From Sedimentibacter sp. MB35-C1 (lineage in GTDB: Bacteria > Bacillota > Clostridia > Tissierellales > Sedimentibacteraceae): a DNA stretch of 64,000 nucleotides. The notes under the pieces were generated by a model. That model was not told where the DNA came from. It ran no database searches and saw only the letters and a program-made list of their open reading frames with translations. The stretch lies in assembly GCF_030913635.1 (NCBI RefSeq), contig NZ_CP133188.1, positions 2,418,001 to 2,482,000 on the forward strand. The letters run 5' to 3'. Position numbers and translations under genes: made by a program. Numbering within the stretch: position 1 is the first letter of the stretch; each line of letters begins with the position of its first letter. Positions 49,095-58,861 of this stretch are shown here, in pieces.

Positions 49095-49709
49095 TTATAT
49101 TTTGCCTTTCAATCTTTTCAATCTGAAAAAATCTTCTCTTTCTTTTTCTTCAAGAACCTCGGTAATATATTTTACCTGTTCCTTGTATTTTGGTATCTGC
49201 ACATATCTTAATGCATTTGTTCTTTTCTTAGTTTTTTCTATTTCCTTGGCAAGCTTAAAAATTGAATTTTCAATTTCCGCAACTTCGTATATTTTTTCCT
49301 TAACAATTTGAAATTTATGTCTTGCCTCGTCAAGAGATTCATTTGAACTATAAAAACCATATGCAGGACCGGAATATTCATTTTGATTACGCTTAATTGT
49401 AGGGATATCAATACCCATAACACTTCTAAGCAATATGTCAAAAGATGCCTCGTCAGGAATGCTGTATGACATATCTTCAACATTTTTAACGCCCAAAGTT
49501 ACATTAGCCTTTTGCAAGAATTCATATGCTTCCTTAAGAACAACATAAATTTCATTGTGCATGGTTCTTGCTTTATTTACAAAAACCATCATTTCCTTAA
49601 TGAGAACATTTCTTTTTTTATCTAAAAGCTCATATCCTTTTATGGAGAGAGCCAAAGATGACTTTGCTTTAATCAGGTTCGATTTAGTTGGTGCAACCAA
49701 TACTGCCAT
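49095..49709 (-). CDS. atpD: V-type ATPase subunit D
   Basis: A 204-residue, all-helical D subunit, the central rotor shaft. It begins MAVLVAPTKSNLIKAKSSLALSIKGYELLDKKRNVLI, the family start, and ends with the heptad-rich TEVLEEKEREDFFRLKRLKG. It is the last gene of the operon, two bases after subunit B. Confidence 0.95.
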   Translation of the reverse strand: MAVLVAPTKSNLIKAKSSLALSIKGYELLDKKRNVLIKEMMVFVNKARTMHNEIYVVLKEAYEFLQKANVTLGVKNVEDMSYSIPDEASFDILLRSVMGIDIPTIKRNQNEYSGPAYGFYSSNESLDEARHKFQIVKEKIYEVAEIENSIFKLAKEIEKTKKRTNALRYVQIPKYKEQVKYITEVLEEKEREDFFRLKRLKGKI

Positions 49710-49711
49710 AA

Positions 49712-51097
49712 CTATCTCTCCCTGTCGTAATCATAATATTTTTCTATTAATTCTGTCTTAACACGATCAAGCTCTTCAACAGGAAGAATAGATAAAATAT
49801 GCCATCCTAAATCTAATGTTTCTGTAATGCTTCTGTTCTCATTTTTGCCCTGTGCAATGAATTTTCCTTCAAGCTCACGACCATATTCTAGATATAACTT
49901 ATCAATATCACTTAAATCATCTTCGCCTATAATCTGTGACAAACTTCTTATGTCCTGAACCTTTGAATATGACGCATAAATCTGACTTTGAAGATCAGCG
50001 TGGTCTTCTCTTGTAAATTCTGCACCTATACCATCCTTCATAAGACGTGATAGTGAAGGCAGAATATCAATTGGTGGGTATACGCCTTTTAGGTTAAGCT
50101 CCCTGTTTAAAACTATCTGTCCTTCAGTAATGAAGCCTGTAAGGTCAGGGATAGGATGTGTTATGTCATCATTAGGCATTGACAATATTGGAATAAGAGT
50201 TATAGAACCCTCGCAGCTCTTTAACATACCAGCTCTTTCATATATAGTTGAAAGGTCTGAATACAAGTATCCCGGATATCCTTTACGTGATGGCACTTCT
50301 TCTCTTGCTGAAGATATTTCACGAAGAGCCTCAGCATAACTGGTCATATCTGTCAATACTACAACAACGTGCATGTTATTTTTAAATGCTAAATACTCCG
50401 CAGCTGTCAAAGCACATCTAGGTGCTGATATTCTTTCAATTATCGGGTCGTCTGCTGTGTTAATATACATTGCAACGTGATCCAAAACACCTGCAGCTTC
50501 AAAGCTTTTTCTAAAGAAGTCTGCATCGTCATGTCTTACACCCATAGCTCCGAACACAACAGCAAAGTTATCACTTGTGGCGCCTTTTATCTTTGCCTGC
50601 TTTACTATCTGAGCAGCAAGATCGTTGTGAGCCATACCGTTTCCGGAGAAAATAGGAAGCTTCTGACCTCTTATAAGAGTCATAAGCGCATCTATTGCAG
50701 AAAAACCTGTCTGAATAAAGTTCTTTGGATATCTTCTTGCTACGGGATTGATAGGTCTACCGTTTATATTTTCTTTTTCTGCTGATATAATCTGGTAAGC
50801 ACCATCAATAGGCTCACCTACTCCGTTAAAGGTTCTTCCAAGAATATCCTTTGAAAGTGGTATTGTCAATGGTTCTCCGGTAAATTTAACGGAGGAATTA
50901 ACTGTAGATATGCCTGCAGTTCCTTCAAAAACCTGAGCTATAACTTTATCGCCTTCAATTTTTATTATCTTTCCTGTCCTGGTGTTTTCACTGCCTACTT
51001 TGATGTTTATAACCTCACCATAAGCAGCATCCTCAATACCGGAAAGAACTATCAAAGGTCCTTCAATTTTTTCTAATTTTAAATATTCTTTTTTCAT
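49712..51097 (-). CDS. atpB: V-type ATPase subunit B (non-catalytic)
   Basis: A 461-residue B subunit. [21 protein letters not shown] opens it, [35 protein letters not shown]-type sequence replaces the Walker A loop, and [35 protein letters not shown] is the nucleotide-binding signature. It alternates with A in the stator headpiece. It follows subunit A by about a dozen bases. Confidence 0.96.
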
Positions 51098-51108
51098 CTC
51101 AACACTCC

Positions 51109-52878
51109 CTACTCATACTTTTGTCTCAAGTCAGCAAATGTTTCAACAATTTTATCTTTTAAAACATCCAACAACTCTATTTTATCATTCGGAATGTCAT
51201 ATTTTATCTTCAAAATATCCTGTATAATAGATTCTTTTCTTATTACAGATATAGGAATGCCTATTTTTGTACATTTTAAAGCTTCTTCATAGAATGTATC
51301 TATTGCTTTCAGCATCTTATATTGTTTTTCCAAAGTAACATAAGCATCTTCCGCGTGTAAAGCATTCTGCTGCAGGAATCCTTTCTTTATTATTCTTGCG
51401 GTTTCAAGAATAAGAGCCTGATCATTAGGTAAAACATCCTCTCCAACAAGCTGTACAATCTCATTTAATTTTTCATCTTCCTGTAAAAGAACAATCATTT
51501 TTTTCCTTAAATCAAACATGTCGCCAGCAACATTATCTTCATACCAATCGGAAAGCATTTCAACATATCCGGAATAACTTGTTAAATAGTTAATTGCCGG
51601 ATAATGCCTTGCATAAGCAAGCTTTTTGTCCAGAGCCAAAAATCCTGAAACGAACCTTTTTGTTGTTTCAGTTACTGGCTCAGAGAAATCTCCTCCAGGA
51701 GGTGAAACTGCACCGATTATTGTTATTGACGCTTTCTGTCCGTTCAGAGTATTAACACATCCGGCTCTTTCATAGAATTCAGCCAGTCTCGACGGAAGAT
51801 ATGCAGGATAGCCTTCTTCTGCAGGCATTTCTTCCAAACGTCCTGAAATTTCTCTTAATGCCTCAGCCCATCTGGACGTGGAATCAGCCATTATGGCAAC
51901 ATCATATCCCATATCTCTGTAATACTCAGCCATGGTAATACCTGTGTAAATACTTGCCTCACGTGCAGCAACAGGCATGTTTGAAGTATTTGCAATAAGA
52001 ACGGTTCTTTCCATCAACGGTCTGTTAATTCTTGGGTCAATAAGCTTCGGAAATTCTTCCAAAACATCTGTCATTTCATTTCCACGTTCTCCGCAGCCGA
52101 TGTACACAATAATATCAGCATCACCCCATTTTGCCAGCTGATGCTGTGTAACTGTTTTTCCGGTTCCAAATCCTCCGGGAAGCCCTATAGTACCTCCCTT
52201 AGCTATAGGATAAAATGTATCTATAACCCTTTGTCCTGTAATAAACGGTTTATAAATAGGAATCCTTTCTTTAATAGGTCGAGGATTTCTTACCGGCCAT
52301 TTTGTGCAAAGTGTTAAATTAACAGTTTCTGTGTTATCTTTTTCCAATACCACTATAGTATCATTTAAGGAGTATTTTCCGCTTGGTTTCACTGATTTAA
52401 CAGTACCTTTAACATTGTAAGGAACCATTATTTTATGAAGAATTCTGTATGTTTCCTGAACTGTAGCGTAAACATCGCCTGGTTTTAAGGTATCTCCTGC
52501 TTTAGCTGTTACTGTAACATCCCATTTTTTTTCTGTATCAATCGTCAAAAGACCGATACCTTCAGGTATAAAGTCTTTATTCATATCTTGAATTCTTTCC
52601 AACGGTCTTTGAATACCGTCAAAAATATTTCCTATAATTCCGGGGCCTAAAGTAACAGATAATGGCATTCCTGTTGAATAAATGCTCTCGCCGGCTTTTA
52701 ATCCCTCTGTCTCTTCATAAACCTGTACTGTTGCAACATCACCTTCAATGGATACTACCTCGCCTATAAGCTTCTGCTTTCCTACGGTAACCATTTCGTG
52801 TACCTTAAACGAACCCATATGGAGACCCTTAACAACAGGACCATTTATTGAGCTGACAACACCTTGGATATTAGCCAT
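51109..52878 (-). CDS. atpA: V-type ATPase catalytic subunit A
   Basis: The catalytic subunit, 589 residues from the ATG at 52878; the in-frame GTG at 52887 overlaps the ribosome site and is rejected. Walker A GGFGTGKT is at 235-242; the long non-homologous region (about 110-200) typical of V-type A subunits is present; [23 protein letters not shown] is the family signature. It overlaps subunit E by 8 bases. Confidence 0.97.
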
Positions 52879-53506
52879 TATAATCACCTGCCTCTAAAGT
52901 CTCAAATATTGTCTGCATGATATAGTCTTTGTTTTCGTCAAGAACAGAATCAATTGATAAATCAATTTTCATGCCTCTATCTTCTATTATGCATATAAAT
53001 CCGCCCTTTATATCATGCTCTATGCTAAAGCTTACATTGCAGTCAAGCTTTTTCGTAATTTCATCTTTAATGAAATCACTGTATTTACCTTGGTCATTTT
53101 TTGTTAAATAAATTGTTACATTACATTTTCCGTAATCTTTAATTTCAGCAACCAAATTGGATATTATTTTTGATAAATATAATTTATATTCATCTGATTT
53201 TATAAACTCATCTAATTTTTTATTAAATCTTTTCATAAAAATATAATAATATTTTTCTTTCAATACCATAATATCTTTTTTTATGATTACCTTTGATTTA
53301 CTTACACTTTCAGCACGCTTTGTATCTGCTCTTTTCGCCGCTCTTTCTTCTATCTCCTTCGCTTCCTTGTCTATTTCGTTCTTAGCTCTTTGATTTTTGG
53401 ATTCATATTTTTCCTTTAAATCCTTTAACTCATCGGTAAAGGACTGATCCATAGACTGATTAAGGAGCTTATAAAAAAGTTTGATTTTTTCTTCTATCGT
53501 AACCAT
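52871..53506 (-). CDS. atpE: V-type ATPase subunit E
   Basis: A 211-residue peripheral-stalk subunit. The N-terminal half is a charged coiled coil (KDLKEKYESKNQRAKNEIDKEAKEIEERAAKR), and the C-terminal half is the globular domain ending DYIMQTIFETLEAG. Sequence similarity to E subunits is modest but length, coiled coil and position between F and A support it. Confidence 0.88.
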   Translation of the reverse strand: MVTIEEKIKLFYKLLNQSMDQSFTDELKDLKEKYESKNQRAKNEIDKEAKEIEERAAKRADTKRAESVSKSKVIIKKDIMVLKEKYYYIFMKRFNKKLDEFIKSDEYKLYLSKIISNLVAEIKDYGKCNVTIYLTKNDQGKYSDFIKDEITKKLDCNVSFSIEHDIKGGFICIIEDRGMKIDLSIDSVLDENKDYIMQTIFETLEAGDYNG

Positions 53507-53515
53507 AAATCACCT

Positions 53516-53824
53516 CTATATATGAATGCCGACAGAATCTCTTATATAATTCTTTATGGCATTGTATTCTCTGATAGTACCGTGTCTATCAGGAATTTCA
53601 ATGATTAAAGGAGTCTTGGACTTTATTTTATATTCCATGTATTCATCTCTAACCATATCAACTACTTTTTCAGTAAGAATCAAGATGCCCAGATCTTGAT
53701 TCTTAACAGCTGTTTTTAATTCTTTCAACGCATTTTCTTTTGTATCGACAATGACTCCATCAATACCGACGAGTCTCATGCCTACCCAAGTATCTCTGTT
53801 ATCACTAATTAAAAAAGATTTCAT
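53516..53824 (-). CDS. atpF: V-type ATPase subunit F
   Basis: A 102-residue F subunit with the CheY-like opening FLISDNRDTWVGMRLVGIDGVIVDT and the GILILTEKVVDMVRDEY segment. F binds the D shaft and modulates the rotor. It lies between the proteolipid and E genes. Confidence 0.92.
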   Translation of the reverse strand: MKSFLISDNRDTWVGMRLVGIDGVIVDTKENALKELKTAVKNQDLGILILTEKVVDMVRDEYMEYKIKSKTPLIIEIPDRHGTIREYNAIKNYIRDSVGIHI

Positions 53825-53850: not shown

Positions 53851-54288
53851 TTAAACGAACAGAATCAATATAGAAATAATCATACCATAAATAGCAATAC
53901 CTTCAGCCATACCAACGAAAATCAATGTTTTACCAAGAATTGAAGAATCCTCTGAAACGGCACCTACTGCTGATGAACCAACTGATCCAACAGCCACACC
54001 TGTACCTATAGTTGCAAGTCCTGTTGACAATGCTGCAGCTAAATATTTAAATCCTTCACCCATTGATATTCCTGTTGCCTGAGCAACTTCATTTACTGTC
54101 TCCGCAAATACATTTCCGCCTGTTATAGTTGCTATAACAGCACCTATCATTACAAGTGAAAATGCTGAAACTGTTGTTAATATTGCTTTCTTTATATTTC
54201 CTTTTTTACCGCTTTTCATTGTTTTATAGCCATATCCGATTGTTCCAACGGATATAACAGCTGCTAATAAAATAGATATCATTTGCAT
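53851..54288 (-). CDS. atpK: V-type ATPase proteolipid subunit K (c ring)
   Basis: A 145-residue proteolipid with four hydrophobic segments (about 3-21, 35-56, 80-103 and 118-145). Only the last hairpin looks like a c-subunit: ATIGTGVAVGSVGSSAVGAVSED and then GMAEGIAIYG with the ion-binding glutamate at E129. The first hairpin has no buried carboxylate. The LPGTQ-type sodium ligands known from Enterococcus NtpK are not visible, so proton specificity is a guess. AAGGAG precedes the ATG. Confidence 0.9.
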   Translation of the reverse strand: MQMISILLAAVISVGTIGYGYKTMKSGKKGNIKKAILTTVSAFSLVMIGAVIATITGGNVFAETVNEVAQATGISMGEGFKYLAAALSTGLATIGTGVAVGSVGSSAVGAVSEDSSILGKTLIFVGMAEGIAIYGMIISILILFV

Positions 54289-54320: not shown

Positions 54321-56309
54321 TTAATTATTTAATTTTATAGGCTTAAACTCTATTCCGCCACCTTCAAAATACTTACTGAACATTTCGTAGTATTGTAGAC
54401 GAAGTCCCTGAATAAATACTATCAATCCTTCAAGTGTAAGGATCAATACATTTCCTAAAAACAGGATAAATATTTTTGCTATCGGATTAGTCACTACCTC
54501 TGACATTACCAAAAAGGCCAAGAACAATCCTGCGTGGTTTAAAGCGAATGCTCCAACACGGACAAATGATATTGCATTACTTAATGCATTCAATATTGTT
54601 TCAATGCCTTCAAATATAGCTTCAGTAAAATATGACCCTGCCTCGCCGTGAATTAACGGTGATTTTTTTAACACCAGGTTAGTAATAGGCTCTTTCAATA
54701 TCATTACTACCAAGCTTATCAACAGAACTGCTATACATAAAGCAGTTGAAATATTGATTATTCCTGTTAGTGACACTAAAGTAAATACAAGACTTATAAA
54801 AAACAAATATCCTGCAACGCCATTTTTCCCGAATATTCCTTCTTCTATATCATGTTTCTTCAAAGCATTTATAATTCCTATTACAAATGACACCGTAAGA
54901 ACTATTACACCGAACAAAACTCCTACAGCAAGTATAGACGGAATATTTTTAGGGTCTAACGGCCCTCCTTCAAGCAAACCTGGAAGCCATGGCAGCTCTT
55001 TTTTCTCTAAACCGAAAAAGCTCCCATATACAAATCCAAACACAATAGAAAAACCACCAAGCCTCATTAATATGTGTCCAGGTGCGGGCATTTTTTTCAT
55101 TAAAAACACTCCTGCAAGTAAATACACAAGACCCTGACCTATATCACCGAACATTATACCCCATGCCAGGCAATAAGTTATAGCCAAGAAAGGTGTAGGG
55201 TCAATTTCGTGATAAGCAGGCAGGCCGTACATTTTAACAATCATTTCAAACGGCCACGAGAACCAGTTGTTTTTCAGCTTTGTTGGAGGTACCACCTGAT
55301 TTCCAAAATCCTTAGCTGATTTTTCATCTATTAAATATTTTTCTGATACTGAAGCAATTGCTTTTTCAACCTCTGACTTATCTCTTTCATTTACCCATAT
55401 GTCTAAAACAAAGGAATTATTGCTGAAATCTGCTCTTGCTTCCAGCTCAGCCAGCTTATCCTCTAATTTAAATACATTGTAAATTTTTAAAACCTGGTTT
55501 TTAATGTCATCCCATTCTCGTTCGATAGATGCAGACATATCCTTTATTTCATTTTGCATCTGAACTATTTCGGCATCAATCTGCTTAATCATATCAGCAA
55601 TTGTGCAGCAATATCTTTTAGGAATAACAAGCTTATTCCAATTCAATGATTTAAGAAGATTATAAGTTTCATCCTTAAATTGCTTAGGATAAATTATCAT
55701 ATATAAATCCTCCGCAGAAGATTTAATAACCCCTATTCTTAGAACTATCGCACTTAGATTCTCATAATTTCTTTTTAATCTGGATTTGTTTTCTGCCGAA
55801 AAGGTTCCGATTTCATAATCAAAATAATTTAAATCAGCAACCTCATTAAGCTGAATACTTTTATCCGTAACACTGTCAATTTTTGTTCTTAATTCCGCAA
55901 GCTTTTCGATCTGCTTTTTCTTTTTGTTGATTTCACTTATTTTACTGCCCCATAAAGAATTAATTTTTCCTAAATCCGAACGAGCGTCCTCAAAGCTATA
56001 ATTTTTCTCCAACAGAAATTTTTTATCTATAACCAGTTCAACATCCAGTCCGTGAGCCAAGGTTTCAACAGTACTTAAGCAATCACTGCAGCTGTTATGA
56101 ATGTTCCCAGGATCAACCCCATGGTAAATCGGTTGTCCAAATATCTCAGATTCATATTGATGTATAACTAAATAGTTGTTATATGCGCTACTGTTTTCAA
56201 CATTTAAGTTTAAATGGGCATTTTCGCAAAATACCAGTTCTCTAAGCATGTCATGCATGTTTTCCAAAGAACCGACAATTTTCAAAAGAACCATTTTTTC
56301 TATAGCCAT
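54321..56309 (-). CDS. atpI: V-type ATPase subunit I (full length)
   Basis: A 662-residue a-type stator subunit. The cytoplasmic half (1-350) is helical and coiled-coil rich, opening with VLLKIVGSLENMHDML. The membrane half (about 370-655) holds about seven to eight segments with MFGDIGQGLVYL, GLLEGGPLDP and the arginine region SFVRVGAFALNHAGLFLAF. It forms the ion half-channels beside the c ring. An additional truncated copy lies just upstream. Confidence 0.95.
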   Translation of the reverse strand: MAIEKMVLLKIVGSLENMHDMLRELVFCENAHLNLNVENSSAYNNYLVIHQYESEIFGQPIYHGVDPGNIHNSCSDCLSTVETLAHGLDVELVIDKKFLLEKNYSFEDARSDLGKINSLWGSKISEINKKKKQIEKLAELRTKIDSVTDKSIQLNEVADLNYFDYEIGTFSAENKSRLKRNYENLSAIVLRIGVIKSSAEDLYMIIYPKQFKDETYNLLKSLNWNKLVIPKRYCCTIADMIKQIDAEIVQMQNEIKDMSASIEREWDDIKNQVLKIYNVFKLEDKLAELEARADFSNNSFVLDIWVNERDKSEVEKAIASVSEKYLIDEKSAKDFGNQVVPPTKLKNNWFSWPFEMIVKMYGLPAYHEIDPTPFLAITYCLAWGIMFGDIGQGLVYLLAGVFLMKKMPAPGHILMRLGGFSIVFGFVYGSFFGLEKKELPWLPGLLEGGPLDPKNIPSILAVGVLFGVIVLTVSFVIGIINALKKHDIEEGIFGKNGVAGYLFFISLVFTLVSLTGIINISTALCIAVLLISLVVMILKEPITNLVLKKSPLIHGEAGSYFTEAIFEGIETILNALSNAISFVRVGAFALNHAGLFLAFLVMSEVVTNPIAKIFILFLGNVLILTLEGLIVFIQGLRLQYYEMFSKYFEGGGIEFKPIKLNN

Positions 56310-56389: not shown

Positions 56390-57457
56390 TTAAATTAGTC
56401 CAAGCGGTTTTGAAAACAGATTGTTTTTTAGTAGCTTTACGAAGCGGCTTGAATGAGCATCCGATTCGTCAGCCGATTTTTCATTTATAAGATAATGCTC
56501 CGTTACAGACCTCACTGCTTGTTCAACAGCTTCTTTATATATTTCATTTAACCTGATGCTTAATGCAAATGAATTACTGATAATATCTGCTCTTAAAGCG
56601 GATTCAGTAATTTTATTTTCTAATCTGAATACGTCATAAATTCTCACAATTTGATTTTTTATATCATCTTTTTCCGATTTGAATGACTCAGACAATTCTT
56701 TTACTTTGTTTTGCATATGGATTATTTCAGCATTGATTTGCTTAATCATATCAGCAACTGAACCGCAATATTGATCAGGAATAATCATCTCAGCCCAATT
56801 TAAAGACTTCAACATTCTGTCGGTTTCATCTTTAAACTGCTTAGGATAAATAATCATGTATATTTCTTCCCCAGATGATTTTACGATTCCTATCTTAAGC
56901 ATTATTGCACTTAAGCTTCCATAGCTTCTTTTAGCTTTTAATTTGTTATCATTTGTAAAAGTTCCGATTTCATAGTCAAAATAATTTAGATCTGCTAACT
57001 CACTAAACTTAATGCTTTTATCAGTAATGCTCTCAATTTTAGCGCCTAACTCCGTAATTTTTTCGAGCTGCTTTTTCGTGCTGTCTATTTCACTTATTCT
57101 ACTGCTCAATAATTCCTTTATTTTTTCTAAATCCAAGCAAGCATTTTCGAAATCATAACCATTTTCAAATGTAAATTCCGCATCAGCATTCAAGTTAACA
57201 TTAAGGTCGCGGGACAGCTCTTCAACAATGCTTAAATACTTAACGCATCTGTTATAAATGTTGTCATGGCTCGGAAACTTTGTCTGCATCCCAACTACTT
57301 CAGATTCAAATTTATGAATCATTAAATTACTATAATACATGCTATCTTTTTCAATGTTTATGTTGTCAATTCTACATAATATCAGTTCCCTTATAATATC
57401 ATGCATATTTTCCAAAGATCCGACTATTTTTAAAAGCACTATTTTTTCTTTAGTCAT
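56390..57457 (-). CDS. Second, membrane-less copy of V-ATPase subunit I
   Basis: A 355-residue protein clearly homologous along its whole length to the cytoplasmic half of the next gene's product: both share VLLKIVGSLENMHD, FSELADLNYFDYEIGTF-type and MIIYPKQFKDET segments. It stops at LLKNNLFSKPLGLI, exactly where the full-length copy continues KLKNNWFSWPFEMIVKMYGL into the membrane domain. The frame is intact with its own GGGAGG site. It could be a functional extra stalk protein, or a duplicated gene that lost its 3' half. No annotation of such a subunit is known to me. Confidence 0.85.
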   Translation of the reverse strand: MTKEKIVLLKIVGSLENMHDIIRELILCRIDNINIEKDSMYYSNLMIHKFESEVVGMQTKFPSHDNIYNRCVKYLSIVEELSRDLNVNLNADAEFTFENGYDFENACLDLEKIKELLSSRISEIDSTKKQLEKITELGAKIESITDKSIKFSELADLNYFDYEIGTFTNDNKLKAKRSYGSLSAIMLKIGIVKSSGEEIYMIIYPKQFKDETDRMLKSLNWAEMIIPDQYCGSVADMIKQINAEIIHMQNKVKELSESFKSEKDDIKNQIVRIYDVFRLENKITESALRADIISNSFALSIRLNEIYKEAVEQAVRSVTEHYLINEKSADESDAHSSRFVKLLKNNLFSKPLGLI

Positions 57458-57471
57458 ATAGAGCCTCCCTT

Positions 57472-58500
57472 CTATATCTTCTGTACTAAATACTCTTGTA
57501 TTTTTTCCCTAGGAACCTTATATTCGATTCCTTCTGTTATAGACATTAAATCATCGATAATGATATCTAAAAAATAAATAAATGACACTACGGTTCCAAT
57601 ATTATTGAAAGTATTTTTTTTCATGTAATTTAACATATAGGAATCAATTACGATGTTAATATCTGTATTATTTGCGTCTTTGAAAAAATCATTTTTCAAG
57701 TATTGTTTTGAAAGATTAATAAATTCGTCCATGGTTGCATAGCAAAGCTTTTTAATCCTGTTATATCCCATAGACAAACCTCCTTCAAGGCTATAAATAA
57801 ACATTTCTTCAGGTGATATTTCATAATACTTTTTAGCTCTGTATATCCATTGAATATTTAAAAGGTCAATCCTAAAGCCTACTAATTCTTTAACAGCCTT
57901 TTGATCTTCCTTGCTTAGTTTTTCGGCCTTTTCAAAAATACTCTTATATAATGCCACATACATTTTCATTTCAATATGAAATTCACGCTTCATTGCATCT
58001 TCCTTCGAAAGATTGCTAAGACCGTTATAATAAGGAGTACCCTTTAATTTTTCTATTAACTGTTCCACACTGCCTGCTGACAGCAAGTCGCCATAAGCTA
58101 AATTTGTGTAATTTTTAGAATGAACAAACCTTTCTTCTATTCCATCCAGGCTTTCATTTTTTGTGATTTTTCGCAGTATAAGATTTAAATCTCGAATATC
58201 TGACTCCATCAAGATTGTTTTTATAAATTCCTTATATGGTCCGGAAAGATAATGCAGAAGGTTCTCTATCTGAAGTGTTTTAAATTTTAGCAATGCTGTT
58301 TCTAAATCTTCCCTTTTGAGCTTTTCATAAAGCATTCCGTCAAATGCCTTAGCGAATTCTACATTGTTTTTTAGCAGTTCGGCAAACTGTCCAACATCAG
58401 AACAGTCTAAAAACTTATTCCATTCAGCTTTCTGTAAAATACGCCCTTTTTTTGTTGCAATTTTTGTTTCCAAAGCATAATATGCCATGTTAGGGTTCAT
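57472..58500 (-). CDS. atpC: V-type ATPase subunit C/d
   Basis: A 342-residue C (d) subunit, the funnel that links the rotor shaft to the c ring. I start at the ATG at 58500 because GGAGGGG lies ahead of it; an earlier in-frame ATG includes the site. It begins MNPNMAYYALETKIATKKGR and is helical throughout, with EDAMKREFHIEMKMYVALYKSIF. It lies behind the G/H gene. Confidence 0.9.
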   Translation of the reverse strand: MNPNMAYYALETKIATKKGRILQKAEWNKFLDCSDVGQFAELLKNNVEFAKAFDGMLYEKLKREDLETALLKFKTLQIENLLHYLSGPYKEFIKTILMESDIRDLNLILRKITKNESLDGIEERFVHSKNYTNLAYGDLLSAGSVEQLIEKLKGTPYYNGLSNLSKEDAMKREFHIEMKMYVALYKSIFEKAEKLSKEDQKAVKELVGFRIDLLNIQWIYRAKKYYEISPEEMFIYSLEGGLSMGYNRIKKLCYATMDEFINLSKQYLKNDFFKDANNTDINIVIDSYMLNYMKKNTFNNIGTVVSFIYFLDIIIDDLMSITEGIEYKVPREKIQEYLVQKI

Positions 58501-58501
58501 A

Positions 58502-58819
58502 TTACCCCTCCAGTACAAATAACTTGTTAAATATTTTTTGGGTTAAATTTTTTTCTGCTTTTAAATAAATATCATCAATTTCAGCAGAATTTTTTTTAAT
58601 TTGTTCTTTTTGAGATTTTTCAATCTCCATAATATAAGCATCGGTTTGTTCAGAAATTTCTTTGGCCTTAACTTTTGCGGCAGAGATTTTTTCTTCCCGA
58701 TAAGCTGATATCATGCTCTCATACTCTTGCTTTTTATTAGATAATATCTGCTCATTTTTAGTCTTATTATTATAAGCCAGAGCATCAATTTCTATGATTT
58801 GATCAATTATCTCTTTCAA
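58502..58819 (-). CDS. atpH: V-type ATPase subunit G/H
   Basis: A short coiled-coil peripheral-stalk subunit, about 105 residues if the TTG at 58819 is the start; the GTG at 58831 overlaps the AAAGGAG site. The middle (EQILSNKKQEYESMISAYRE, then KAKEISEQTDAYIMEIEKSQ) is a continuous charged heptad helix. It is the first gene of the operon, with a consensus promoter upstream. Identification rests on position and shape. Confidence 0.82.
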   Translation of the reverse strand: MKEIIDQIIEIDALAYNNKTKNEQILSNKKQEYESMISAYREEKISAAKVKAKEISEQTDAYIMEIEKSQKEQIKKNSAEIDDIYLKAEKNLTQKIFNKLFVLEG

Positions 58820-58861
58820 ATAGCAACTCACTCCTTTGTCTTTTTTTTTACATTACTCCAC

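Follow-up and report, generated by a model that had tools for sequence, protein, structure and literature searches.

In the genome of Sedimentibacter sp. MB35-C1, the V/A-ATPase operon carries an additional gene directly upstream of the gene for subunit I, and its product corresponds to the cytoplasmic half of that subunit. What would a rotary ATPase do with a second copy of this half, and is the copy maintained at all? Bacterial V/A-ATPases are described as having two EG stalks on one subunit I, and the eukaryotic enzymes as having three stalks together with the collar subunits C and H. The preliminary description of the window (the whole 64,000-nucleotide stretch of DNA that was analyzed) had left two answers side by side, a second stator or regulatory stalk protein and a decaying copy.

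The additional gene, which we call I-short, lies in a closed genome of 3.62 Mb and is read from an ATG start through 355 codons with no internal stop. It is encoded within the V/A-ATPase operon in the order G-C-I-short-I-K-F-E-A-B-D (Table 1), starting 14 bp past gene C with the ribosome site AGGGAGG. The product matches positions 1-351 of the 359-position I N-domain profile and is 54.5% identical to its own full-length I across the whole cytoplasmic domain, while the membrane-domain profile gave no match, indicating that the C-terminal membrane domain with the ion half-channels is absent. Its C-terminal end is located just inside the domain boundary (LLKNNLFSKPLGLI before the stop, compared with KLKNNWFSWPFEMI in the full-length I), and the motifs YFDYEIGTF and MIIYPKQFKDET are both found in it. 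The intact homologue, its motifs and its good ribosome site were therefore present as the preliminary description had reported them. A sequencing frameshift that hides a membrane domain is excluded, because only 80 bp separate the I-short stop from the start of full-length I; moreover, in an independent genome (G015, Sedimentibacter MAG LM3-B4.1) the ORF is identical in extent and ends at the same point. The standard family models fail to call this gene: Pfam V_ATPase_I did not match I-short, and the NCBIfam subunit I equivalogs reached at most 27.8 bits against cut-offs of at least 670. Since the membrane domain is missing, we class I-short as a paralogue of the subunit I N-domain and not as a subunit I proper.

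Among the neighboring genes, the one between full-length I and subunit F is listed as subunit K, which we take it to be from established knowledge of the V/A-ATPase operon. The same genome also contains a second, divergent V/A-ATPase operon (L040:4376-12331; C1:899-907 kb), whose genes run G-I-K-E-C-F-A-B, with one I of the ordinary kind.

Table 1 Features of the I-short operon in the window, and loci of relatives with a duplicated C-half of the subunit I cytoplasmic domain.
Feature	Position	Strand	Basis
Subunit D, last gene of the operon	49095..49709	-	match to f5 subunit D, 206 bits
Subunit B	49712..51097	-	conserved ORF
Subunit A (catalytic)	51109..52887	-	conserved ORF
Subunit E (partner of G in the peripheral stalk)	52871..53506	-	operon position, conserved in relatives
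Subunit F	53516..53824	-	operon position, conserved in relatives
Subunit K (rotor ring proteolipid)	53851..54288	-	operon position, conserved in relatives
Full-length subunit I (662 aa), parent copy	54321..56309	-	N-domain and membrane-domain profiles match; Pfam V_ATPase_I 110 bits
I-short, stand-alone cytoplasmic (N) domain of V/A-ATPase subunit I	56390..57457	-	ORF; profile; AF2 model; dN/dS
Subunit C (central-stalk type, AhaC-like), directly upstream of I-short	57472..58500	-	NCBIfam AhaC 91 bits, under the curated cut-off
Peripheral-stalk subunit G/H, first gene of the operon	58502..58831	-	position; alignment with 32 other G/H proteins
Duplicated C-half loci in relatives	L045:3292-5115; L046:3132-5195; L052:3752-5632; L051:3530-5287		

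I-short arose by duplication of the adjoining full-length I gene, and everything beyond the cytoplasmic domain was lost. In the tree, the short genes of MB35-C1 and G015 group with the full-length I of the same two genomes, inside Sedimentibacter and with support of 99/98, and in 12 other Sedimentibacter operons C is followed directly by full-length I. The duplication was therefore a local event in one Sedimentibacter branch, and the tandem duplication with truncation that had been proposed for this locus is borne out. The faint similarity to the full-length gene that had been seen in the DNA past the I-short stop did not stand: its best local match was 10 of 11 bases, and 57% of the shuffles scored as well or better, so no significant trace of the lost membrane part was found there.

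I-short is under purifying selection and is not a pseudogene. G015 has the same C-I-short-I arrangement, and its I-short is intact, with an undisrupted frame, and 89% identical. Between these two species, the dN/dS of I-short is 0.234 (bootstrap range 0.15-0.40), well below 1, and neutrality is rejected with p = 9e-10. For the same species pair, the same domain of full-length I gave 0.039 and subunit E gave 0.172; I-short has thus evolved ~5 times faster than the corresponding domain of its parent (p = 1.6e-6), and this faster divergence could reflect a weak function. The gene was found in 2 of the 17 Sedimentibacter genomes in which subunit I of this operon was detected, indicating that it is dispensable on the scale of the genus. 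The fast evolution and the confinement to two species are what one would expect if the duplicate were decaying and had stayed intact in two close species by chance, but we give this almost no credence. In simulations of neutral drift, the ORF acquired ~12 stop codons on average at a dS of 0.225 and 21 when drift was run to the estimated age of the duplication, compared with none observed, and frameshifts are absent as well. The short and full copies differ at an estimated dS of 1.3-1.7, and the duplication is therefore old relative to the species pair. In addition, a short I has been retained separately in another genus, g7, with a dN/dS of 0.142. The earlier notion of a decaying copy is abandoned on these grounds.

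This second genus is part of a wider pattern. An exhaustive profile search for short I in 249 genomes of the bacterial order revealed that membrane-less I genes arose at least three times: in Sedimentibacter (two species), in g7 (three of three species) and in g83 (one species). The g7 species (family f5; G030, G060 and G237) have a 344-aa short I between C and I that ends in STKLKNSLLLRVLA and groups with its own full-length I (100/97), and a single clade of the g7 and Sedimentibacter short genes is rejected (AU p = 2e-38). Of the four g83 species, only G225 has a short I, which is 468 aa long and located before C; a common origin with the g7 gene is also rejected (AU p = 0.0018), although the tree gives little support for where exactly it belongs within g83. 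These two tests reject descent of the short genes of all lineages from a single ancient short I. Gene conversion between the short and full-length genes could make the origins look recent, but it would have had to act separately in each lineage. The ends of the short copies are within a few residues of the same domain boundary. Outside the order, no short I was found among the 95 matching of 243 class genomes and the 68 matching of 299 phylum genomes, with a profile that loses its first 100 positions in distant genomes and may miss diverged cases there.

Several other candidates for a short I were set aside. The second I in Sedimentibacter G022, present as two fragments on two contigs, is explained by a contig break within one full-length gene, and the short frames in G214, G248 and G410 are subunit I genes that reach a contig end. 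Separately, subunit C of G248 is read as two neighboring ORFs (163 and 178 aa; L050:3077-4146), probably as a result of a frameshift or an assembly error.

The short gene of g83 links the I N-domain to the peripheral stalk. In G225 (L047:4278-5684), the extra I N-domain in front of C continues through a flexible stretch into a complete G/H subunit. The tail, residues 370-466, matched the G/H profile with 45.7 bits (best of 500 shuffles, 5.6), and the AF2 model of the fusion predicts a well-folded I domain, a low-confidence linker at residues 329-362 and then helices. A free G is present in this genome as well. The Sedimentibacter copy has no G tail, as the best score of the G/H model on I-short was -2.7 bits.

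A second type of fusion was found in g28 and g47 (family f4), where subunit I itself is split in the distal lobe and its N-half is fused to G (L043:3554-5806, L041-L046, L051, L052). This arrangement is present in 33 genomes, comprising all 31 of g28 and both of g47. The fusion protein has 290-295 aa, of which N-domain positions 1 to ~190 come first and G follows (G/H profile on the g28 fusions up to 54 bits; best shuffle, 7.3), and the membrane protein starts at N-domain position ~193. The split site corresponds to the turn between two distal-lobe strands, 185-192 and 197-205 in the P0001 model. No separate G upstream of C was found in the seven g28 loci that we read. Furthermore, the membrane subunit of some g28 members carries two tandem copies of the C-half of the I cytoplasmic domain, a doubling that occurred independently in g47; the other g28 members have one copy. 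If two G-bearing stalks are the normal number in these enzymes, the doubled C-half would bring each enzyme to two complete I domains. A reported 757-codon frame had suggested that the two g28 genes are joined by programmed readthrough, but this was rejected, since the junction consists of ordinary stops (TAA, TAG and TGA) and then a start. The g28 loci also encode a short subunit F of 78-79 aa (L041:6074-6310 and other g28 loci), compared with 101-102 aa in most relatives and 83 aa in f4/g61.

The predicted structure of I-short (AF2, pLDDT 79) retains the I N-domain fold with two lobes and long helices. The best structural matches of the model are N-domains of a/I subunits, the top one having a VIA Z of 17.3 and that of Thermus (6r0z_N) a Z of 16.7. 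Eukaryotic subunit C also matched, below the a/I subunits (1u7l, VIA Z 10.2, rmsd 9.5 over 243 residues; 7u8o_G, Foldseek E 3e-8), while a profile search of the PDB sequences with I-short at E 0.01 returned only a/I subunits. I-short keeps the residues that are invariant in the full-length I of Sedimentibacter unevenly, at 16 of 19 positions of the distal lobe but at 4 of 10 positions of the membrane-adjacent tail (p = 0.03). The g7 short copies show the same tendency (15 of 20 and 4 of 10).

From these observations, we consider that I-short probably serves as a functional extra stator subunit in the collar of this V/A-ATPase, a role assigned by analogy. Of the functions put forward in the preliminary description, that of a second stator or stalk protein gained support only indirectly, through the purifying selection, the convergent origins and the fusions of the I N-domain to G in other genera; the analogy is required because in Sedimentibacter and g7 the short gene has no G fusion of its own. 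In a/I, it is the cytoplasmic region that holds the EG stalks, both of them in the known bacterial enzymes (PMC10382590, PMC6131620), where their asymmetric arrangement is thought to distort one rotary state (PMC5758568). I-short would be located in the collar between V1 and the membrane, where it would hold the foot of an EG stalk, either the second or a third one. Because it has no membrane anchor of its own, it would be supported by the other stalk or by the N-domain of full-length I. In this position, it would double the EG-holding surface and might stiffen or balance a bacterial stator that has two stalks, as subunit C, which also lacks a membrane part, does in eukaryotes. With a second I domain present, the load could be shared or a third stalk held. 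The gene content does not by itself call for three stalks, as the operon has one E and one G gene.

A sub-case of this extra stator subunit, differing in the number of stalks, is that full-length I holds one EG stalk and I-short the other, with a shared collar and no third stalk. We regard this as conceivable but would not count on it. The g28 and g47 enzymes point in this direction, in that they carry G only as the fusion to the I N-half, and the complementary C-half, doubled in some members and independently in the two genera, would fit two I domains with two stalks; however, the single C-half in the other g28 members speaks against it. A rather unlikely reading is that I-short acts off the membrane, as a free regulator or assembly factor that binds EG or V1 and competes with full-length I. 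V1 would then be kept off the membrane or assembly would be paced, and the level of I-short would set the number of coupled pumps. An EG-binding fold with no membrane anchor, encoded in the same operon with its own ribosome site and having lost 6 of the 10 tail residues that are invariant in full-length I, would suit such a protein. However, the G fusions in g83 and in g28/g47 tie this domain to a structural part of the stalk, and a competitor would be expected to have its own promoter, whereas on the coding strand from C to full-length I no terminator-like site was seen and promoter-like sites were no commoner than in shuffles.

The second V/A-ATPase operon of this genome also suggests a different employer for I-short, which might serve that enzyme or a scaffold that is not an ATPase at all. 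We find this very improbable, since the I-short gene is part of the first operon and closely paralogous to the I gene there. A complete I of 657 aa is encoded in the second operon itself, and it resembles the full-length I of the window far less than I-short does; other Sedimentibacter genomes have a second V/A-ATPase operon without a short I.

With I-short as a probable extra stator subunit, the recurrence of such genes acquires a broader meaning. It may be, and we put this forward only tentatively, that the V-ATPases of this order have repeatedly evolved a membrane-less second collar subunit from I, giving enzymes that contain the I cytoplasmic domain twice and may have a third peripheral stalk, as a bacterial rerun of the step that gave rise to eukaryotic subunit C. 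We found no description of a duplicated bacterial subunit I in the literature, within a scope that left out most subscription papers. Subunit C has the aN fold without sequence similarity, and its origin is therefore not readable from sequence. The present cases are recent and dated, and in them, on at least three occasions, the I N-domain was set free as a soluble protein of its own, in some cases with G fused to it. If I-short is part of the enzyme, it would provide a testable model of a rotary motor gaining a stator part.

Among the known systems, I-short is closest to the N-domain of subunit I (a, NtpI), as in Meiothermus ruber (3RRK), Thermus (6R0Z, chain N) and E. hirae (8WCI). It is homologous to these domains over its full length and has in common with them the fold of two lobes joined by long helices. 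In the known I proteins, however, the N-domain is covalently attached to the ion-conducting membrane domain, whereas I-short is a separate gene beside an intact full-length I. The peripheral-stalk subunit G/H forms fusions with the I N-domain in g83 and g28/g47, while the Sedimentibacter I-short stands without it. The closest parallel to a free-standing domain of this kind is eukaryotic subunit C (Vma5), a soluble collar protein with an aN-like fold and, like I-short, without a membrane part. Subunit C belongs to the collar that anchors three EG stalks (PMC6131620), and its fold and that of aN are remarkably similar despite having no sequence similarity (PMC3899036). Vma5 occurs outside bacteria and has no detectable sequence similarity to I-short; because the two share no sequence signal of common ancestry, we do not class I-short as a subunit C, although it may function like Vma5. 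Each bacterial short copy was duplicated recently and separately from the local I gene, and a likeness in role to Vma5 would be convergent.
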